Assembly: GCA_027080725.1 (NCBI GenBank)
Contig: JALWRC010000086.1
Location: 62,001 to 126,000, forward strand
From: Saprospiraceae bacterium
Lineage (GTDB): Bacteria; Bacteroidota; Bacteroidia; Chitinophagales; Saprospiraceae
DNA length: 64,000 nt
Direction of reading: 5' to 3'
The notes beneath the pieces were generated by a model. It did not search any database and was not told the DNA's origin. It saw only the letters and a list, made by a program, of their open reading frames with translations. Shown one piece after another: positions 22,442 to 51,940 of this stretch; within the stretch, counting starts at the first letter, position 1; each line of letters begins with the position of its first letter. The position numbers and the translations under genes are program-made.

Positions 22442-23236
22442 TTACCATTTTGTCCTCGATGAATTGAGCCAGGAATTGGCCATCTTGATGTACTGTCCCC
22501 TTGTAAATCCACAAGCACATCCGTAATAAGACATAATGTTACCTACGTCCGGACGGTAATAATCCCCGTTGGCATCCCGCTCCTGATATATAAAACGGCA
22601 CTTATCATCCACCCATTGGATTGGAGGGTCAGAGCCATAATAAGGATCTGCCGGCGTATCACAAATCTCATCTCCTGTCGTCTTACAATTCGAGCCATCT
22701 ACCAGCTCTAATCCTTTAGATTTGTCAAACGTATGTTTCAATCCAAAATAGTGCCCCAACTCATGTGTTATTGTTCCCGCAGAAGGCCCGACGATACAGA
22801 TTCCACCGTCATCTACGGCAATACCGCCGGCAGAAAAACCCCCGATGGGGTCCTTCCTAAAGGATCCGGTAAAATACATATTGATCCGGCGGTTGTGATG
22901 ATACTTTACAGTCAATTCATCCCATAGGGAATCGGCTACCTTATACATGTGGAAGTACTGGTAATTGGGCACTGTATCAAATTCACAAACTTCAAACCGG
23001 ACGCAAATGGGCGCAAAATAAGTATTGACCGTTTCAAATGCACGCACAATCGCACGCTTTCTCTTCTCTACATCCACTTTGTGTAAACTGTCAATCACAA
23101 TATATGCATAGATACTAAAAGTTTTGTTGAGACAGGGCAAAGGGGCCTCTTTGGTGTGCAATTGCTGTGAAAATCCCATAAAAGGAAGGACCAAAAGGAG
23201 AAGGAGGGGGCCTAAAATGTTAAAGTTTGTTTTCAA
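22442..23236 (-). CDS. Secreted M43-like zinc metalloprotease
   Basis: This 264-residue protein has a signal peptide (ILGPLLLLLVLPFMGFSQ). The metzincin zinc motif HELGHYFGLKH is followed by the characteristic M43 insert (GDEICDTPADP) and a Met-turn in NIMSYYG, with several cysteines that probably pair in the exported protein. M43 (cytophagalysin/pappalysin) proteases are typical secreted enzymes of Bacteroidota. No T9SS C-terminal domain is visible, so it may remain periplasmic or be exported differently. It is divergent from the giant PKD protein gene across only 70 bases, suggesting shared control. Confidence 0.9.
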   Translation of the reverse strand: MKTNFNILGPLLLLLVLPFMGFSQQLHTKEAPLPCLNKTFSIYAYIVIDSLHKVDVEKRKRAIVRAFETVNTYFAPICVRFEVCEFDTVPNYQYFHMYKVADSLWDELTVKYHHNRRINMYFTGSFRKDPIGGFSAGGIAVDDGGICIVGPSAGTITHELGHYFGLKHTFDKSKGLELVDGSNCKTTGDEICDTPADPYYGSDPPIQWVDDKCRFIYQERDANGDYYRPDVGNIMSYYGCACGFTRGQYIKMANSWLNSSRTKW

Positions 23237-23244
23237 TGTGTCAA

Positions 23245-23280
23245 TTTTTTGGTTAAATCTAAGAATCTTTTATATCTTGC
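23245..23280 (+). promoter_or_regulatory. Putative promoter of the PKD-repeat protein gene
   Basis: TTTTTTGG (23245-23252) and TATCTTGC (23273-23280) are 20 bases apart. The second differs from TAnnTTTG in its last two bases, but the same TTTTGG/TATCTTGC pair recurs before the TM2 operon with a 19-base spacer. Only 26 bases remain to the start codon. Confidence 0.4.
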
Positions 23281-23306
23281 CCAAAAATAACAAACACATT
23301 GATATA

Positions 23307-26300
23307 ATGAGGATAAATTTATTAACTTTAACACTTTTCCTTCTGACCTTTCCTTTTTTTATTTATGCACAATCTGCAAATCACCCTATAGGCTGTGCGC
23401 CTTTGAGCGTTGATTTTACTGCAGGAACGAATCTATCTCAATACTATTGGGATTTTAAGAATGGCGTTATTTCTAAGCAAAAAGACCCTTCTACCACTTT
23501 TACAAATTCCGGATCCTATAATGTAGAACTCAAAGAAGGGGAAAATGGACGTTCTGTTGGACATGTTTTAATTACCGTATACCCCAAGCCTATTATTTCA
23601 TTGACGGCAGATCCGACGTCCGGATGTGCTCCCCTCAATGTCTCTCTCAATTCTTCCGTCATCATCGACTCCAAAGTCAAGATCAACAACTACCATTGGA
23701 CCTTTGGAGATGGTAGCGCCAGAGATAATGGCCCGATGACCCAACATCTCTACACTAAAACCGGCAAATTCAGTCCGGCGCTTGAGATACAGACCAACAC
23801 ATACAACTGCAACCTCACAAAGATATTGGAGCCTCCGGTCGAGGTGTACGAAGCCCCTGTCGCAGGTATCAAAACCTCTCCCGGCCTTCCTCTGGCATGC
23901 GAACCACCCCTGAAAGTGACATTTACCAACACTTCTACCGGAGACGGTTTGACGTATCAATGGGACTTTGCAAATGGAAATAGTTCTACTGATAAAGACC
24001 CGGGAGAAGTCGTCTTTGACAAATACGGCGTGTATCGTGTCAAACTCAAAGTTACCAATACCAAGGGATGCGTCGATAGTGTCATTAAAATCATAACCGT
24101 CGGTAAACCACATATCCAACTCAGCTATCCGGATACCGTTTGTCTGAATATGCCCTTCTTTATAAGCAACCGATCTTCTATCGGATTCTACGAATGGGAT
24201 TTTTCGCCTGATGGAATGCCACAATCTTCTACAAAACGAACTCCTCTCCTTTTGTATGATACTCCCGGTTGGAAGACTTTTAAGTTTAAGGTTACATCAA
24301 GGGACAGAAAGTGTAGCTCAGACAGCACTTTCCGGATATATGTAGAAGATCCCTCTGCTGAGTTCACTACCCTTCCCCTCAAAAGATGCGATGACTCGAT
24401 AACACTATTTCATTATCCTGTCAACAAACACGGTGCAAAATATACTTGGTTTCATCATTATGACAGTACCTTTACCGACCAACGCGAAGATACCTTCACC
24501 TATGTAGAAAACCCACGAACACGGTATTATACCAAGAATGGACCGATCTACTTCCCGACAACCTTAGTCATCGAGACCAATGCCGGTTGCCTTGATACCG
24601 TGACCATCATTGATTCTATTTTTATATTAAATGCGCGGTTTATGCCCGATATTACGAGGGGCTGTGCACCTTTGGAGGTCACTTTCTCGGATTCCTCCTG
24701 GTCTGACTCCGATATCATCCGTTGGAGTTGGGATTATGGGGACGGCACCAAGGAGACCGTATCTGATGGTGCGCCGCGAAAACACACTTTCCAAAAACCG
24801 GGAATCTATCCGGTTACCTTAATTGTGGAAAATCAAATGGGCTGTATAGATACCTCATACATAGTTTATATAGAAGTAGGAGAAAAGCTCGACCTGGACT
24901 TTACCGTAGACAAAAGATCTGTTTGTAAGGGAGAAGAAGTGCATTTTTCTCCGACAAAACGCTATCCTGACTTAGATATTGATGGTTGGCATTTTCATAC
25001 CGACAGAGGAAGGGCGCACCAATGCCCCGATGATCCGGAGGCCTACCATATGTTTATCACCGAACCCGGAAAAATGAATGTAACACTCGAAGTGGACTAC
25101 CACGGATGCTATTCTACTATAACAAAACGCGAGTGGATTGAGGTCAAAGGCCCTTTTGCACGTATTGATTATCTGGTAAGGTGCGACTCTCCTTATCATG
25201 TTGTCTTTAACGATTCGAGCTACGGTACGACGGGTCAAACCTGGTATATAGAGGATAGTATCATCCGGGATAAAAAACACTTTGTGTACAAATTTGACTC
25301 CACAGGGGACTATACCGTAGTACTAAAAGCAGAAAACGACACCACAAGATGTCCGCCGGATTATGATACGGTCACTGTTTATATCCGGGATATCAAGGCG
25401 GCTACCCATCTTGCTCCGACGGCATGTGCAGAGGAGAAATACGTCCTTGACGGCATGGAAAGCAGGGATGTTGACAATAGATGCCACAAAGGCTATACCT
25501 GGTTGTTTGACAAATATCGTCCGCTTACGACGGACGAAGCCTATACCGATGATATTGGGTTTCCTGATACCGGACTATTAAAGATACGATTAGAAGTAGA
25601 AGACATCAATGGCTGCCGGGATACGTCAGATTATGATACCCTAAGGGTTTTTGGTATTCGACTGCAGATTGAGCCCTTACAAGATCGAATCTGCGAAGGC
25701 GGAGAAATGCGTTTTAAGGCTAAAGCGGAAGGGGATACGACGCTCACAGATTTCGAATGGAGTTTTGGTGATGGTACTAAGGGACATGGACAGGTAGTCA
25801 CACATACCTACCACAGTATTAGGGATAGCTTCCTGGTAAAAGTAAAAGTAACAGACGCCTTAGGCTGTACTCATTCAGACAGCTCCTTCTTTTATACTTA
25901 TACCCCTCAGACGGCGATTTTTACGGATCCCACCCCTTCCAATATTTGTGTGGGATCGAGCATCACGTTTGATGCCAAAGACTATACGAAAGGTGGCTCC
26001 CACCTCGCCTATGATTGGATGTTGAGCAACGGGTACCGGGATACTTCCGGACATTTCATCCTCAAATTTGATAAACCCGGGGAAATAAATGTCATTTTGA
26101 AAGGTACTGAGGTGTCTTCCGGATGTATCTCAGGAGATACGGTAACAGTACGCGTCCAGGATTATCCGGTGGCGGACTTCAGAAGTACCCTTGACCCGGA
26201 TACCATCGGGTGTGCCAATAGTATTGTGCGCTTTGACGCGGTAGATCATCCGGGGGGAACCGTGGTATTCCGCTCATGGAACCTCGGCAATGGAATTGTC

Positions 26301-27650
26301 GCTGACCGGACGCCATTTATCGAACAGGCTTTCAAGAAGGGAACTTATGACATACAATTGGTCGTATCTACCTCGTTTGGATGCATGGGTACCATCCTCA
26401 AATCCTACTCTTTTATCGGACCGGAGGGAGATATCAGCGCCGCCCGGGATACACTCTGTCCCGGAGATGTTGTCCAACTCAGCCTCAAAGACACTTCCGA
26501 TGTCGACAAATGGACTTGGGAAGTGAGCGGTAATACCTACAAAAACGTCAATCCCCTCTCCTCTGAAATATTTATTACTGATAGCAGGGATAGTGCTAAT
26601 GTAGTGCTTCGTCTCTTTAAGGATGAATGTGAATCGGTTATAGTCAAACCCATTTATTTCTTTAGAATATTTGCAGATTTTGACACCACACCGAGCTGTC
26701 TGGGGGACCACCGGTTTATTAATAATTCCAAAGGTGGAGAACTTTTCGAATGGGACTTGGGCAATGGACAAACTTCCAATCAACAGCATCCTATCGCAAC
26801 CTATACCGAACCGGGGACCTACAAGGTCAAGCTGGTCATTAGCGACAGTCATCACGGATGCGTGGACTCTACGGAAAAAGAGATTTTTATATTCCCTTCC
26901 CCCAAGCCGTCCGGAGTGGACAAGGTCACTTGTGAATGGGATACCGTCCAGTTGAATATCAAAAACAGAAACACAAAACACAGTTATCAATACACCACGA
27001 GTTCGGGAACCAATATCCCCGAACCATGGGTTACAGGGCCTTTGGGCGGAAGAAATAAGTACGTCTTTTTCCTCGAGGAAACAGATGAAAACAGTTGCAT
27101 CGGTATCGACACGGTCACGGTAGATATCATCCGCCAGCTCATAATTAATGACCTGGATACCTTTGTTTGTTTAGGAGACCCCATTGTTCTTCCGGCAGAA
27201 GACACCTTCGGGTACTACCAATTCGAATGGTCTCCACTGGTCAATGATTGTAAGGACTGTAAATCGCCTAAGCTACTACTCGAAAAAACAGATAGCTTCA
27301 CGTTGCGTTACAGCTCACCGATGGGATGCTTCGACTCGACCGCCCATTTTAAAATTGCCGTAATATCCAATCATCCGGATATTCCCAAGGCCTTTACTCC
27401 TAATGGGGATAATGTCAATGACAATTTTAAGGTCCTCGTGCCTTTCCCACTGGATGCTTCGACCGTAAAGCGGTTTGAGATATTCAATCGATGGGGGGAA
27501 AAGGTCTATGAAAATACCACCCCGACAGAAGGTTGGGATGGTATGTATAAAAATAAACCTGCGCCCAATGGTATCTACTTATACCTTTTGCACGTTTCTT
27601 ATAAAGGTTGTGAATTTACCATCAAGGGGGATGTGACTTTAATTAGGTAA
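23307..27650 (+). CDS. Giant PKD-repeat adhesin-like protein with gliding-motility (CHU_C) C-terminal domain
   Basis: This 1447-residue secreted protein begins with a signal peptide (INLLTLTLFLLTFPFFIYAQ) at the ATG at 23307. About 14-16 PKD/Ig-like repeats of 80-90 residues follow, many opening with GCAPL or CxG and carrying W-x-F/L-G-x-G cores such as YHWTFGDGSA and FEWSFGDGTK. The last 95 residues are the CHU_C domain (IPKAFTPNGDNVNDNF, FEIFNRWGEKVYE, GWDGMYKNKPAPNGIYLY), a T9SS sorting signal. Such proteins are surface adhesins or filaments in gliding and biofilm-forming Bacteroidota. Frequent Cys suggest disulfides. The frame is intact throughout. The longer upstream frame overlaps the divergent protease gene and is not used. 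Confidence 0.93.
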   Translation: MRINLLTLTLFLLTFPFFIYAQSANHPIGCAPLSVDFTAGTNLSQYYWDFKNGVISKQKDPSTTFTNSGSYNVELKEGENGRSVGHVLITVYPKPIISLTADPTSGCAPLNVSLNSSVIIDSKVKINNYHWTFGDGSARDNGPMTQHLYTKTGKFSPALEIQTNTYNCNLTKILEPPVEVYEAPVAGIKTSPGLPLACEPPLKVTFTNTSTGDGLTYQWDFANGNSSTDKDPGEVVFDKYGVYRVKLKVTNTKGCVDSVIKIITVGKPHIQLSYPDTVCLNMPFFISNRSSIGFYEWDFSPDGMPQSSTKRTPLLLYDTPGWKTFKFKVTSRDRKCSSDSTFRIYVEDPSAEFTTLPLKRCDDSITLFHYPVNKHGAKYTWFHHYDSTFTDQREDTFTYVENPRTRYYTKNGPIYFPTTLVIETNAGCLDTVTIIDSIFILNARFMPDITRGCAPLEVTFSDSSWSDSDIIRWSWDYGDGTKETVSDGAPRKHTFQKPGIYPVTLIVENQMGCIDTSYIVYIEVGEKLDLDFTVDKRSVCKGEEVHFSPTKRYPDLDIDGWHFHTDRGRAHQCPDDPEAYHMFITEPGKMNVTLEVDYHGCYSTITKREWIEVKGPFARIDYLVRCDSPYHVVFNDSSYGTTGQTWYIEDSIIRDKKHFVYKFDSTGDYTVVLKAENDTTRCPPDYDTVTVYIRDIKAATHLAPTACAEEKYVLDGMESRDVDNRCHKGYTWLFDKYRPLTTDEAYTDDIGFPDTGLLKIRLEVEDINGCRDTSDYDTLRVFGIRLQIEPLQDRICEGGEMRFKAKAEGDTTLTDFEWSFGDGTKGHGQVVTHTYHSIRDSFLVKVKVTDALGCTHSDSSFFYTYTPQTAIFTDPTPSNICVGSSITFDAKDYTKGGSHLAYDWMLSNGYRDTSGHFILKFDKPGEINVILKGTEVSSGCISGDTVTVRVQDYPVADFRSTLDPDTIGCANSIVRFDAVDHPGGTVVFRSWNLGNGIVADRTPFIEQAFKKGTYDIQLVVSTSFGCMGTILKSYSFIGPEGDISAARDTLCPGDVVQLSLKDTSDVDKWTWEVSGNTYKNVNPLSSEIFITDSRDSANVVLRLFKDECESVIVKPIYFFRIFADFDTTPSCLGDHRFINNSKGGELFEWDLGNGQTSNQQHPIATYTEPGTYKVKLVISDSHHGCVDSTEKEIFIFPSPKPSGVDKVTCEWDTVQLNIKNRNTKHSYQYTTSSGTNIPEPWVTGPLGGRNKYVFFLEETDENSCIGIDTVTVDIIRQLIINDLDTFVCLGDPIVLPAEDTFGYYQFEWSPLVNDCKDCKSPKLLLEKTDSFTLRYSSPMGCFDSTAHFKIAVISNHPDIPKAFTPNGDNVNDNFKVLVPFPLDASTVKRFEIFNRWGEKVYENTTPTEGWDGMYKNKPAPNGIYLYLLHVSYKGCEFTIKGDVTLIR

Positions 27651-29446: not shown

Positions 29447-30532
29447 TTATTCTTCGTTTTCCCCCCGCAATATGCGCTGTTGCCGGTCAATGGATTCTTC
29501 ATGGATGATTTCTAAGAATTTGGTGACAAATGTGGATGCCAGGCCATTTTTTTTCGCTTTTTCCAACGATCGCTCCATGATTTCATTCCACCTCGCCGAC
29601 TGGAGAATCGGAATGTGATTGGCCTTTTTAAAATGGCCTATTTCATCTACGAGTTTCATTCTTTTCTCCAGTGCTTTGAGCAGCTGATCATCCAGTCTGT
29701 CTATCTTCGAGCGGATGTCAGAGAGCCCCTCTTGGGTCAACATTTCATCCGGATTCTGGTACCACTCTATCTCCTGTATCATCCTGCGATACGTGAAAGG
29801 GGTAATTTGTTGGGCGGCATCACTCCAGGCTTCATCCGGTCGCTCATGGACCTCCGTCATCAATCCGTCATAGTCGAGATTCATCGCTTTCTGTGCGACA
29901 TCCTGAAGGATATCCCGGCGACCACATATATGACTGACATCACATATCATAGGCATATCGGGGAAGGTACTTTTGATTTGTATCGGGATATTCCATTGGG
30001 GTTTGTTGCGATAGAAACTCTCCCCATAGCTGGCAAATCCGCGGTGAATCAATCCGATCTCCCGGATACCGGCCTTTTGGATACGTTCGACCGCTCCTGT
30101 CCATAGATTGAGGTCCGGATTGATGGGGTTCTTGACCATCACCGGGATATCAATGCCCTTCAGAGCATCCGCAATCTCCTGTACGCTGAAGGGATTGACC
30201 GTGGTGCGGGCTCCGATCCACAACACGTCGATGTCATGCTTGAGCGCCGCTTCCACATGCTGTTTGTTGGCCACTTCCGTCGTAACTTTCAAACCGGTTT
30301 CCCGCTTGACCTGTTGCAACCATTTCAAGCCTATCTCACCAATCCCCTCAAAATTATTGGGACGGGTCCGCGGCTTCCAGATACCTGCCCGAAAGAGTTG
30401 GATACCACTCTCTTTCAATTGTTGAGCGGTATTGATGACCTGTTCTTCCGTCTCCGCGCTACAGGGACCCGCTATGAGGAGCGGTTTGTGTTTCAAAATA
30501 GAATCTGATTTCATTAGCATCGTATTTTTCAA
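29447..30532 (-). CDS. aroF: Bifunctional 3-deoxy-7-phosphoheptulonate synthase / chorismate mutase
   Basis: This 361-residue fusion joins an N-terminal type I-beta DAHP synthase (LLIAGPCSAE near residue 18, RAGIWKPRTRPNNFEGIGEIGLKWL, and a late CDVSHICGRR segment) to a C-terminal AroQ chorismate mutase (residues about 265-355, DIRSKIDRLDDQLLKALEKRMKLVDEIGHFKK). It thus covers the first committed step of aromatic synthesis and the branch point to prephenate. The mutase half often mediates feedback control. It is the third gene of the operon, 4 bases after tyrA, and is therefore predicted to be under the Tyr-leader attenuator at 32.7 kb. Confidence 0.95.
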   Translation of the reverse strand: MKNTMLMKSDSILKHKPLLIAGPCSAETEEQVINTAQQLKESGIQLFRAGIWKPRTRPNNFEGIGEIGLKWLQQVKRETGLKVTTEVANKQHVEAALKHDIDVLWIGARTTVNPFSVQEIADALKGIDIPVMVKNPINPDLNLWTGAVERIQKAGIREIGLIHRGFASYGESFYRNKPQWNIPIQIKSTFPDMPMICDVSHICGRRDILQDVAQKAMNLDYDGLMTEVHERPDEAWSDAAQQITPFTYRRMIQEIEWYQNPDEMLTQEGLSDIRSKIDRLDDQLLKALEKRMKLVDEIGHFKKANHIPILQSARWNEIMERSLEKAKKNGLASTFVTKFLEIIHEESIDRQQRILRGENEE

Positions 30533-30536
30533 TCGG

Positions 30537-31376
30537 TTATTTGAGAATTGATTTGATTTTATTTGCCTTGGTCATCATTTGATCGATGGCTCCAAAATCG
30601 CCCTTGATGAGTGCCGTTCTAAAACTCGAAAGCACGGTGATGTGTTCATCCAGCACATCTAATAAAGGGGCTCTGTTCTGGCGAAAAATCGGCACCCAAG
30701 TCTTGGGATTGCTCTTTGCCAATCGCACCGTCGAGCGAAATCCCCCGCTTGCCAACCGGAAAATCTCTTCTTCGCTTTTCTCCTTATTGAGTACCGTCAA
30801 AGCCAGTGCTATCGAACTCACATGAGAGACATGCGATACATACGCCGCATGCATATCATGTACCTCTGCATCCTGATGCAGCAAGTGCATCCCAATGCCC
30901 GTAAAGATTTTTTCGACACATTCGAGCGCATCCCGGTCGCTCTTTTCGGCGTCGCAAATGACGCAATACTTGCCCTCGAAGAGATTTAATACCGCGGCAT
31001 CCGGTCCTGAAAACTCCGTCCCCGCCATCGGGTGACAAGCGACAAACCGCCCTCTTTTCGGGTGATTGGCACATGCCTTAACAATCTCGGACTTGGTACT
31101 CCCCACATCAAAGATGACTTGTCTGTCTACCCGGTCCAAAACGTCCGGAAGCAACCTCCCGATGCCGTCCACAGGAGTGGCAAGAACAATGACCTCTACC
31201 TCTCTGATTACATTTTCCAATGTATCTACAGCATCCACCAGCCCCAACTCCAAAGCTCTTTGCCGGTGTGTTTCACTTTGGTCAACCCCTATGATACTTT
31301 CGGCCAATTGATGCGCCTTCAGGCTCCTCGCCATCGACCCGCCTATCAACCCGAGTCCTATAATCGCTACGTTCAT
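30537..31376 (-). CDS. tyrA: Prephenate dehydrogenase
   Basis: TyrA oxidatively decarboxylates prephenate to 4-hydroxyphenylpyruvate, the tyrosine precursor. The 279-residue protein has the N-terminal Rossmann motif GLGLIGGS (residues 7-14), an acidic residue in the GVDQSE segment favouring NAD, the catalytic-His region CHPMAGTEFSGPDAA, and the helical dimerisation domain. No C-terminal ACT domain is present. The ATG overlaps the stop of the aminotransferase gene by four bases (ATGA). Position between an aminotransferase and DAHP synthase/chorismate mutase gives a compact tyrosine route. Confidence 0.95.
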   Translation of the reverse strand: MNVAIIGLGLIGGSMARSLKAHQLAESIIGVDQSETHRQRALELGLVDAVDTLENVIREVEVIVLATPVDGIGRLLPDVLDRVDRQVIFDVGSTKSEIVKACANHPKRGRFVACHPMAGTEFSGPDAAVLNLFEGKYCVICDAEKSDRDALECVEKIFTGIGMHLLHQDAEVHDMHAAYVSHVSHVSSIALALTVLNKEKSEEEIFRLASGGFRSTVRLAKSNPKTWVPIFRQNRAPLLDVLDEHITVLSSFRTALIKGDFGAIDQMMTKANKIKSILK

Positions 31377-32581
31377 CCGTCTATTGTTTTGTGTTGATGC
31401 TTTGTTTTTGTGGTATGAAATGGTACCATTTTATGCATGATGCGCTCTACGGCCAACTTTAAGACCTCTGCGTCCGAGCAAAGAGACCATCGGACATATT
31501 GGCTTCCATTTTGTCCAAAGACCACCCCGGGAGGGACAAAAACCCCGCATTTGTGTAGGAAAAAATCGGAGGCTTCCTCTCCGTCCCCAAAGCGATCCGA
31601 TACCTTCGACCAAATGAATAGCCCTGCCGTATCACTCCGGTATTCAAACCCAATGGCGTCCAACATGGGATACAGTATTTCCCTCCTCTTCCGGTATATC
31701 GTATCGTTCGCCTCAAACCATTTGTCTCCCAGCCCGAGTGCTACTGCAGCAGCTTCTTGAGAGGGCCGAAACATCCCCGAGTCCATATTCGATTTGAAGC
31801 GAAGCACTGCGTCTATGTACTCCGCTTGTCCCACCAGCATCCCAATCCTCCAACCCGGCATGGCATGTGATTTGCTCAGCGAATTGAGTTCGATACTGCA
31901 GGCCTTCGCACCGGGAATTGACAGAATCGATTTCCTATCTTTATTGAGTATAAACCCGTAGGGATTATCATTGACCAGGAGAATATTTTTTTGAAGAGCC
32001 AGAGATATGAGTTGCTCCATCACCTTGGAGTCCATGCGAGCACCGGTAGGCATGTGTGGATAATTCAGCCAAATAATTTTGGTATTACTGTCCAATTTTA
32101 CAGCCAATGCTTTTATGTCCGGTTGCCATCCGTTTTCCTCCGTCAAATCATACGTCCGCACTTCAGCGCCGGCCATCTTGCTCGCAGCGCTATAACTCGG
32201 GTATCCGGGGTCAGGGACCAGTACATTATCACCCGGATTCAAAAAGGCCATGGCGATATGCATGATTCCCTCTTTGGAGCCCATAAGCGGTAGAATCTCA
32301 GAGGCCGGATCCGGTGTACAATCCAGATGGTCTCTATAGTACCGGGCCATAGCCTCTCGCAAGACAGGTATGCCCTTATAGGATTGATATCCATGGGCAG
32401 CCGGGTGCTTCGCTCCACGTACCAAGGTTTGGATCACCTCATCGGGAGGGGCGATATCCGGACTCCCAATCCCAATATTGATCACCGGTATACCCCGGTC
32501 TACCATTGCCCGGACTTCCCTTAACTTCTTTGAGAAGTAATACTCTTGAACATCACTGATACGATGCGACAAAGGAATCAT
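31373..32581 (-). CDS. Class I/II PLP aminotransferase of the aromatic operon
   Basis: This 402-residue fold-type I aminotransferase shows the substrate segment INIGIGSPDIAPP, the NYPHMPTGA block that binds PLP, and the Schiff-base Lys in LNSLSKSHAMPGWRIG. It resembles the aspartate/LL-diaminopimelate/prephenate aminotransferase group, and its operon position suggests transamination of 4-hydroxyphenylpyruvate, prephenate or both. It is the first structural gene behind the Tyr-rich leader and overlaps tyrA by four bases. The last 15 residues are polar and contain one copy of the TATGAAATGGT word. Confidence 0.92.
   Translation of the reverse strand: MIPLSHRISDVQEYYFSKKLREVRAMVDRGIPVINIGIGSPDIAPPDEVIQTLVRGAKHPAAHGYQSYKGIPVLREAMARYYRDHLDCTPDPASEILPLMGSKEGIMHIAMAFLNPGDNVLVPDPGYPSYSAASKMAGAEVRTYDLTEENGWQPDIKALAVKLDSNTKIIWLNYPHMPTGARMDSKVMEQLISLALQKNILLVNDNPYGFILNKDRKSILSIPGAKACSIELNSLSKSHAMPGWRIGMLVGQAEYIDAVLRFKSNMDSGMFRPSQEAAAVALGLGDKWFEANDTIYRKRREILYPMLDAIGFEYRSDTAGLFIWSKVSDRFGDGEEASDFFLHKCGVFVPPGVVFGQNGSQYVRWSLCSDAEVLKLAVERIMHKMVPFHTTKTKHQHKTIDG
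31414..31424 (+). repeat. TATGAAATGGT word, copy 4
   Basis: Exact word in the 3' end of the aromatic aminotransferase gene, followed at once by ACCATTTTATG, so it forms a near-perfect inverted pair. Confidence 0.8.
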
Positions 32582-32631
32582 AACTCATTCTTTGCATTAA
32601 AAAAGATAACTAACTATTCCCGATCAGCTAT

Positions 32632-32660
32632 AAAAAAAGCCCGTCAAAAAGACAGGCCTT
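32632..32660 (-). terminator. Attenuator terminator in the leader of the aromatic operon
   Basis: On the minus strand AAGGCCTGTC (32660-32651) pairs with GACGGGCTT (32645-32637) across a TTTTT loop, and seven T follow at 32638-32632. The stem is about ten pairs including two G-U pairs. It sits 51 bases before the aminotransferase start and 27 bases after the leader stop codon, where it can only act on the operon itself. Confidence 0.88.
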
Positions 32661-32699
32661 CATTTATAACTAAAAAAGTTTACATACCTATAGCCCATC
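32651..32699 (-). promoter_or_regulatory. Predicted antiterminator pairing
   Basis: GATGGGCT (32699-32692, codons 18-20 of the leader peptide) can pair over eight contiguous positions, three of them G-U, with GGCCTGTC (32658-32651), the left arm of the terminator. Pairing would prevent termination. A ribosome at the leader stop codon (32690-32688) would cover the first strand, while one stalled on the Tyr codons would leave it free. Confidence 0.7.
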
Positions 32700-32750
32700 C
32701 GAAAGACGCGGACAATACCAATAGGAATAATATGTATACTTAATTCTCAT
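32688..32750 (-). CDS. Tyr-rich leader peptide of the aromatic amino acid operon
   Basis: This 20-codon frame begins MRIKYTYYSYWYC and ends SDGL, with five Tyr codons (positions 5, 7, 8, 10, 12) and one Trp at 11. Tyrosine is normally about 3-4 percent of residues. It lies directly after a TAnnTTTG promoter box, is followed by an intrinsic terminator and a matching antiterminator, and precedes an aminotransferase-tyrA-DAHP synthase operon. By established logic for leader-peptide attenuation, ribosome stalling on Tyr codons when Tyr-tRNA is scarce should allow transcription into the operon. It is too short for ordinary gene calling. Confidence 0.85.
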   Translation of the reverse strand: MRIKYTYYSYWYCPRLSDGL

Positions 32751-32759
32751 TTATGAAGG

Positions 32760-32767
32760 CAAAGATA
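32760..32767 (-). promoter_or_regulatory. -7 promoter box of the attenuated aromatic operon
   Basis: On the minus strand TATCTTTG matches TAnnTTTG exactly. A TTTT at 32787-32790 lies 19 bases upstream, a weak -33 box. Only nine bases separate the box from the leader-peptide ATG, so the transcript would be leaderless or nearly so. Confidence 0.6.
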
Positions 32768-32810
32768 AAACTTTATTTAGAACTGGAAAATACACCCACC
32801 CTTACGTGTG

Positions 32811-51807: not shown

Positions 51808-51940
51808 AGCCAGAAATAATTATGTTTTACACATGATTTTTATTAGTCAAAACAAAATGGAGACCTGTTACCAATTAATAAACGGGGCGTAACCGAAAAG
51901 CCAAACGAGTAGGACAATTTTTAACCAAAGAAAAGCAATA

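Follow-up and report, generated by a model that had tools for sequence, protein, structure and literature searches.

A tyrosine-rich leader peptide and candidate transcription attenuator upstream of an aminotransferase–tyrA operon in Saprospiraceae, with related aromatic leaders across Bacteroidota

Leader region of the aminotransferase–tyrA operon

The window, that is, the whole 64 kb stretch of Saprospiraceae DNA that was analysed, carries on its minus strand an operon of aromatic amino-acid biosynthesis headed by an aminotransferase gene. The first-pass annotation had named an aminotransferase, tyrA and a DAHP synthase/chorismate mutase gene downstream of a Tyr-rich leader, and all three were found on the minus strand. 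The elements claimed for the leader region were each located on the same strand, with positions matching to the base. The features are listed below, with the basis of each leader element in brackets.

31373–32581, minus strand: aminotransferase, class I, LL-DAP-aminotransferase-like, first gene of the operon
30537–31376, minus strand: tyrA, prephenate dehydrogenase (NCBIfam equivalog, above cut-off)
29447–30532, minus strand: DAHP synthase/chorismate mutase fusion
32760–32767, minus strand: TAnnTTTG (−7 box) of a predicted Bacteroidota sigma-A promoter, TATCTTTG (sequence)
32688–32750, minus strand: leader peptide ORF of 20 codons, MRIKYTYYSYWYCPRLSDGL followed by TAG (sequence, conservation in the congener, unique in the window)
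32715–32738, minus strand: control codons 5–12, Tyr Thr Tyr Tyr Ser Tyr Trp Tyr (sequence; T-Y-Y-S-Y-W-Y identical in locus L007 of the congener)
32676–32741, minus strand: protector (1:2) hairpin over the control codons and the stop codon (MFE fold)
32691–32700, minus strand: strand 2, 5′ arm of the antiterminator, GGATGGGCTA (pairing, spacing and folding tests)
32651–32658, minus strand: strand 3, GGCCTGTC, 5′ arm of the terminator and 3′ arm of the antiterminator (sequence, alignment)
32632–32645, minus strand: intrinsic terminator, strand 4 GACGGGC (32645–32639) followed by T7 (32638–32632) (sequence, fold, scan)

The leader ORF runs from an ATG at 32750 to the end of the TAG at 32688 and begins 9 nt after the TAnnTTTG box. 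Tyrosine is encoded by codons 5, 7, 8, 10 and 12, that is, by five of the eight control codons, and tryptophan by codon 11. This agrees with the first reading of the sequence, which had given a TAnnTTTG box and a 20-codon leader with five Tyr codons within codons 5–12 and a Trp codon. The antiterminator strand had been described as overlapping the last leader codons, and it does so, at 32700–32691. The intrinsic terminator is located between the leader ORF and the first gene, with a TTTTT loop separating GGCCTGTC from GACGGGC. It is not listed by a simple promoter/terminator scan of the window and was recovered by folding and by a dedicated scan. The RNA of the leader region forms two hairpins (fold z = −4.9 against dinucleotide shuffles); the value for the protector-hairpin region of the window is −1.6.

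Both strands of the 64 kb were scanned for ORFs of 8–40 codons that have four or more Tyr in a stretch of nine residues and are followed by a terminator no more than 110 nt away. There is a single match, the leader at 32688–32750. No equivalent combination of ORF and terminator was found on either strand of the 64 kb for W, H, F, L, T, C, P, G or R, nor was any found for I/L/V-rich ORFs (at least seven of nine residues).

Prephenate dehydratase (PF00800, pheA) is found in neither genome of the genus to which the window belongs (G000 and G041), and chorismate synthase is present. Judging from its gene content, the genus is probably auxotrophic for Phe and His, with the Tyr and Trp pathways kept, and perhaps auxotrophic for Leu as well. 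HisG (PF01634) has no match in either whole genome, and PF00682 matches only a short HMGL-like protein in both.

Leaders of the relatives and their codon content

The comparison within the genus involves one other genome, G041 (locus L007), whose aminotransferase is 62 per cent identical to that of the window. Despite this divergence, the Tyr leader, the terminator and the antiterminator are all kept: the leader MNYTSTYYSYWYYLLMTDRPVL is located upstream of the aminotransferase, strand 2 is GGACAGGCC, at the same location as GGATGGGCTA of the window, and the terminator is AAAGCCTGTCATTTGATGATGGGCTTTTTTT. The nearest relative bearing pheA, Saprospiraceae AK_MB52 (L036), has a single leader, CFFFFYFWY, and shares the terminator core AGCCTGTC with the window.

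In the alignment of the window with G041 and L036, strand 3 (GCCTGTC) is identical in all three. Strand 2 has the forms GATGGGC, GACAGGC and GATAGGT and strand 4 the forms GACGGGC, GATGGGC and GACAGGC, all of them able to pair with strand 3. Such constancy of strand 3, next to variation in strands 2 and 4, is what one would expect if strand 3 has two partners. The first-pass annotation had proposed to look in relatives for pairing-preserving changes, and was ready to give up the attenuator if they lacked the frame or the alternative pairing. In the relatives, the aromatic frame is conserved together with the terminator and the alternative pairing, and the differences in strands 2 and 4 among these three sequences leave the pairing with strand 3 intact.

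The survey across Bacteroidota is based on 80 named loci with the aminotransferase, of which 79 were counted; 77 leaders were used in the mechanism tests. By the strict count, an aromatic leader with a terminator is present in 68 of the 79 loci, compared with one case on the opposite strand and zero to two in each of five shuffle sets. In most of the loci, pheA heads the operon and the aromatic-rich leader and terminator are upstream of pheA. Among the Saprospiraceae, upstream sequence sufficed for 85 pheA-first operons, and 73 of these have both elements; Phe codons are present in all 73 of these leaders. The seeming lack of a Tyr leader upstream of the aminotransferase in other Saprospiraceae is explained by the gene order: pheA intervenes, and a Phe/Tyr leader is found upstream of pheA. 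A TAnnTTTG box is present no more than 60 nt upstream of 43 of the 77 leaders and in 25 of 727 control stretches. On this comparative basis, the predicted Tyr leader of the window belongs to a large, mostly undescribed family across Bacteroidota.

Tandem attenuators are often seen in the Saprospiraceae. Two tandem aromatic leader–terminator units precede pheA in L009, L010, L027, L059, L082, L084, L095, L111, L164 and other loci; in L111 and L164 a Phe-rich or mixed unit is followed by a Tyr-rich one (NQYYSYWYF and NQYYPYWYF).

The codon content of the leaders varies with the position of pheA. The pheA-first leaders mix Phe and Tyr codons. The nine-residue core is devoid of Phe in 13 of 17 aminotransferase-first leaders (including the first L108 entry, probably a chance match far upstream) and in none of the 59 pheA-first leaders (Fisher p = 1.6e-11, uncorrected for kinship, the Tyr-only leaders representing about three lineages). 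Tyr-only leaders are confined to loci without pheA in the operon. Their lineages are the genus of the window, Cytophagales (Arcicella, Flectobacillus, Pseudarcicella, Siphonobacter, Aquirufa and MAGs) and a Lentimicrobium MAG. Spirosomaceae-type genomes carry pheA elsewhere, as a chorismate mutase–prephenate dehydratase fusion, and no Phe leader was found before this stand-alone gene in Spirosomaceae. PF00800 was not found in the genomes of L073, L075 and L108.

We also tried a stricter rule, that loss of pheA always leads to a Tyr-only leader. It is broken by three aminotransferase-first loci, L135 (G082), L070 and L076, where no pheA was detected in the genome and the leaders are Phe-rich; these exceptions may be recent losses or incomplete assemblies. 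Two further genomes have a stand-alone pheA with its own Phe-rich leader and terminator (L207 in G102 and L214 in G063), and no leader was found at their aminotransferase operons.

We consider it rather probable that the window holds a natural Tyr-specific attenuator within a phylum-wide series, the codons having been re-tuned in several lineages once pheA had left the operon or the genome. If this is true, the change from Phe + Tyr to Tyr-only codons is a readable record of regulatory specificity tracking metabolic loss. A different origin is possible, and we mention it tentatively: the Tyr leader may be the surviving second, Tyr-type unit of a tandem pair, and not a leader re-tuned codon by codon after the loss of pheA. 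Tandem attenuators being common in Saprospiraceae, it is consistent with such an origin that the second leaders of L111 and L143 (NQYYSYWYF) and of L164 (NQYYPYWYF) resemble YTYYSYWY of the window. The nearest pheA-bearing relative speaks against it, having the single leader CFFFFYFWY with the same terminator core.

Alternative pairing, ribosome placement and proposed mechanism

Pairing of strand 2 with strand 3 is stronger than in shuffled sequences across the 77 leaders (mean z = −3.1; p < 0.05 in 79%). In the window, it amounts to −10.8 kcal/mol against a shuffled mean of −8.7 (p = 0.185), and is not significant alone. Of the earlier claim that the left arm of the terminator pairs with the antiterminator strand, the arm itself was located as described, and the pairing is not significant in the window by itself; support for the predicted, mutually exclusive antiterminator comes from the relatives. 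Strand pairs of the same locus are more stable than strands swapped between loci (−12.4 versus −7.5 kcal/mol, p = 6.5e-14); this swap across loci took the place of a covariation count, as the stem columns barely vary in the close Flavobacteriaceae alignment. The region upstream of the terminator is also more structured than shuffles in the 77 leaders (mean z = −2.1).

The position of strand 2 is constant relative to the control codons. It starts at a median of 13 nt (IQR 11–15) past the last aromatic codon in the 77 leaders, and 15 nt past the last Tyr codon in the window. The leading edge of a ribosome lies about 9–11 nt beyond the A-site codon, and the antiterminator strand would begin just outside a ribosome stalled at the last aromatic codon.

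The nascent RNA was folded with a ribosome at the last control codon, at the stop codon, or absent. With the ribosome on the last control codon strand 2 is free, and strand 3 is bound to upstream RNA in 73 of the 77 leaders; with the ribosome at the stop codon strand 2 is covered, and this number falls to 4 of 77. For the window, the fraction of strand 3 tied upstream is 0.73 with the ribosome stalled, 0.36 at the stop codon, where it corresponds to a structure of −1.1 kcal/mol, and 0.00 without a ribosome, owing to formation of the 1:2 hairpin. If the full-length RNA of the window is folded to equilibrium, the terminator prevails even when the ribosome is stalled, so that the switch has to act kinetically, in line with the trp paradigm.

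With high confidence, we regard this region as a transcription attenuator of the ribosome-mediated, leader-peptide type, with charged tRNA-Tyr and possibly also charged tRNA-Trp as its signal. The attenuator had been proposed from the single sequence, and it gains support from the conservation in relatives, the alternative pairing and the Tyr-only codons where pheA is outside the operon. The Tyr-rich leader and its RNA switch very probably turn on the tyrosine-making genes, tyrA among them, when tyrosine is low. Transcription would begin shortly before the leader ORF, which a ribosome would translate. When Tyr is plentiful, the ribosome would reach the stop codon and cover strand 2, strands 3 and 4 would pair, and transcription would stop short of the aminotransferase gene. 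Under a shortage of Tyr-tRNA, the ribosome would stall on the Tyr codons within codons 5–12, leaving strand 2 just past its leading edge; pairing of strands 2 and 3 would then block the terminator and allow transcription of the aminotransferase, tyrA and DAHP synthase/chorismate mutase genes. Without a ribosome, the 1:2 hairpin would hide strand 2 and lead to termination.

The DAHP synthase of the operon also feeds tryptophan, and for this reason the attenuator may sense aromatic supply more broadly, with Trp codon 11 as a second control codon. The conservation of this codon in the congener suggests that a shortage of Trp could also be sensed, and Trp is present in many pheA-first leaders. We find broader sensing unlikely: five or six Tyr codons outnumber the single Trp codon, Spirosomaceae leaders of the Tyr-only type have no Trp, and the same genome already has a dedicated Trp leader at trpE. 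In both congeners the trpE-trpG-trpD operon is preceded by this leader, which carries Trp-Trp-Trp (WWW), and by a strong terminator:

G000, contig C13, upstream of 19253, minus strand: Trp leader MMQRFLNTNNWWWLHLSSFG (L128)
G041, contig C290: Trp leader MQFRTSNNWWWLNLFFDE (L127)

Against the Rfam family RF01692 both score 36–39 bits, below the cut-off, and Rfam would therefore miss them. With a WWW leader at trpE and a Tyr leader at the tyrosine operon, the leader is matched to the operon inside one genome.

Compared with the Tyr-sensing attenuator, a plain promoter-proximal terminator next to an incidental Tyr-rich ORF, keeping expression at a constant basal level or delimiting unrelated transcription, is very improbable. 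It is in line with the weak pairing of the window taken alone, but not with the recurrence of an aromatic ORF and terminator in 68 of 79 loci, compared with 1 and 0–2 in the controls, nor with the constant, ribosome-sized spacing and the matched antiterminators. A metabolite-binding riboswitch or T-box-type tRNA sensor without a translated leader would also show an intrinsic terminator and a structured 5′ region ahead of an amino-acid operon, but it is hardly credible here, since the element has no Rfam match at the gathering score and no T-box or riboswitch match up to E = 5, and the leaders have reading-frame content in common, not an aptamer-like conserved sequence.

Relation to known leaders

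Leader-peptide attenuation is a textbook mechanism. The order of the parts in the window (control codons, 1:2 hairpin, 2:3 antiterminator, 3:4 terminator) is that of pheL-pheA and trpL-trpE of E. coli, which sense Phe or Trp, whereas the window leader would sense Tyr. The tyrosine genes of E. coli are controlled by the TyrR protein and not by attenuation.

Within Bacteroidota, the closest known element is RF01692 (Bacteroid-trp), the Bacteroidete tryptophan peptide leader RNA of Rfam (Weinberg 2010, PMC2864571). Like the window leader, it is a leader-peptide RNA of this phylum, located before an aromatic amino-acid operon and with control codons matching the operon; its control codons are Trp, whereas the window leader has five Tyr and one Trp. 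The window leader has a weak full-length resemblance to RF01692 (22.7 bits, E = 2.7), below the gathering score of 49. The Bacteroid-trp-like leader of this genome is the trpE leader (36–39 bits), not the Tyr leader, for which Rfam has no family. In Flavobacterium psychrophilum, transcriptome maps have suggested attenuation by leader peptides upstream of amino-acid operons (PMC9723704), which is the same proposed mechanism in the same phylum; the part of that account cited here names neither the amino acids nor the operons. In this species, the pheA leader (L086) has Phe and Tyr codons mixed.

Among aromatic leaders studied by experiment, the nearest comes from Actinobacteria. In C. glutamicum aroR-aroF, a Phe-Tyr-Phe leader peptide, with one Tyr codon, precedes the DAHP synthase operon (Neshat 2014, as reviewed in PMC11802643), and transcription is unaffected by tyrosine availability (PMC11802643). 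According to a 2010 survey, which added Firmicutes, leader peptides had until then been known only in Proteobacteria and Actinobacteria (PMC2965389).

No tyrosine-sensing leader peptide was found in the literature searched, which was mostly outside subscription journals; the 2010 comparative survey of attenuation by Lopatovskaya and others may list some of these leaders. The first-pass annotation had suggested that a Tyr leader of this form was undescribed in Bacteroidota. This holds for the Tyr leader, for which we found no description, and not for leader attenuation as such, already known in the phylum (RF01692; PMC9723704). The mechanism is of a known kind; what we could not find described is its specificity for tyrosine and the series of aromatic leaders, matched in codons, throughout the phylum.

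The regulation of amino-acid synthesis in Bacteroidota is poorly described. For aromatic biosynthesis, these leaders would provide a concrete means of control that lends itself to testing, and they occur in most of the operons examined. Tyrosine would join the amino acids to which translated leaders respond. As the codon content varies with the operon content, the sensed amino acid could be predicted from the leader sequence alone. The series also illustrates how a sensor may change its specificity upon loss of a pathway branch.

Two other features of the window may be mentioned. The only Rfam match is a DUF805 RNA (RF03081) at 51852–51919 on the plus strand (73.6 bits). A very large ORF (23124–27650, plus strand) contains, as judged by eye, repeated PKD-like segments and a C-terminal gliding/secretion-type domain, and appears typical of Bacteroidota surface proteins.
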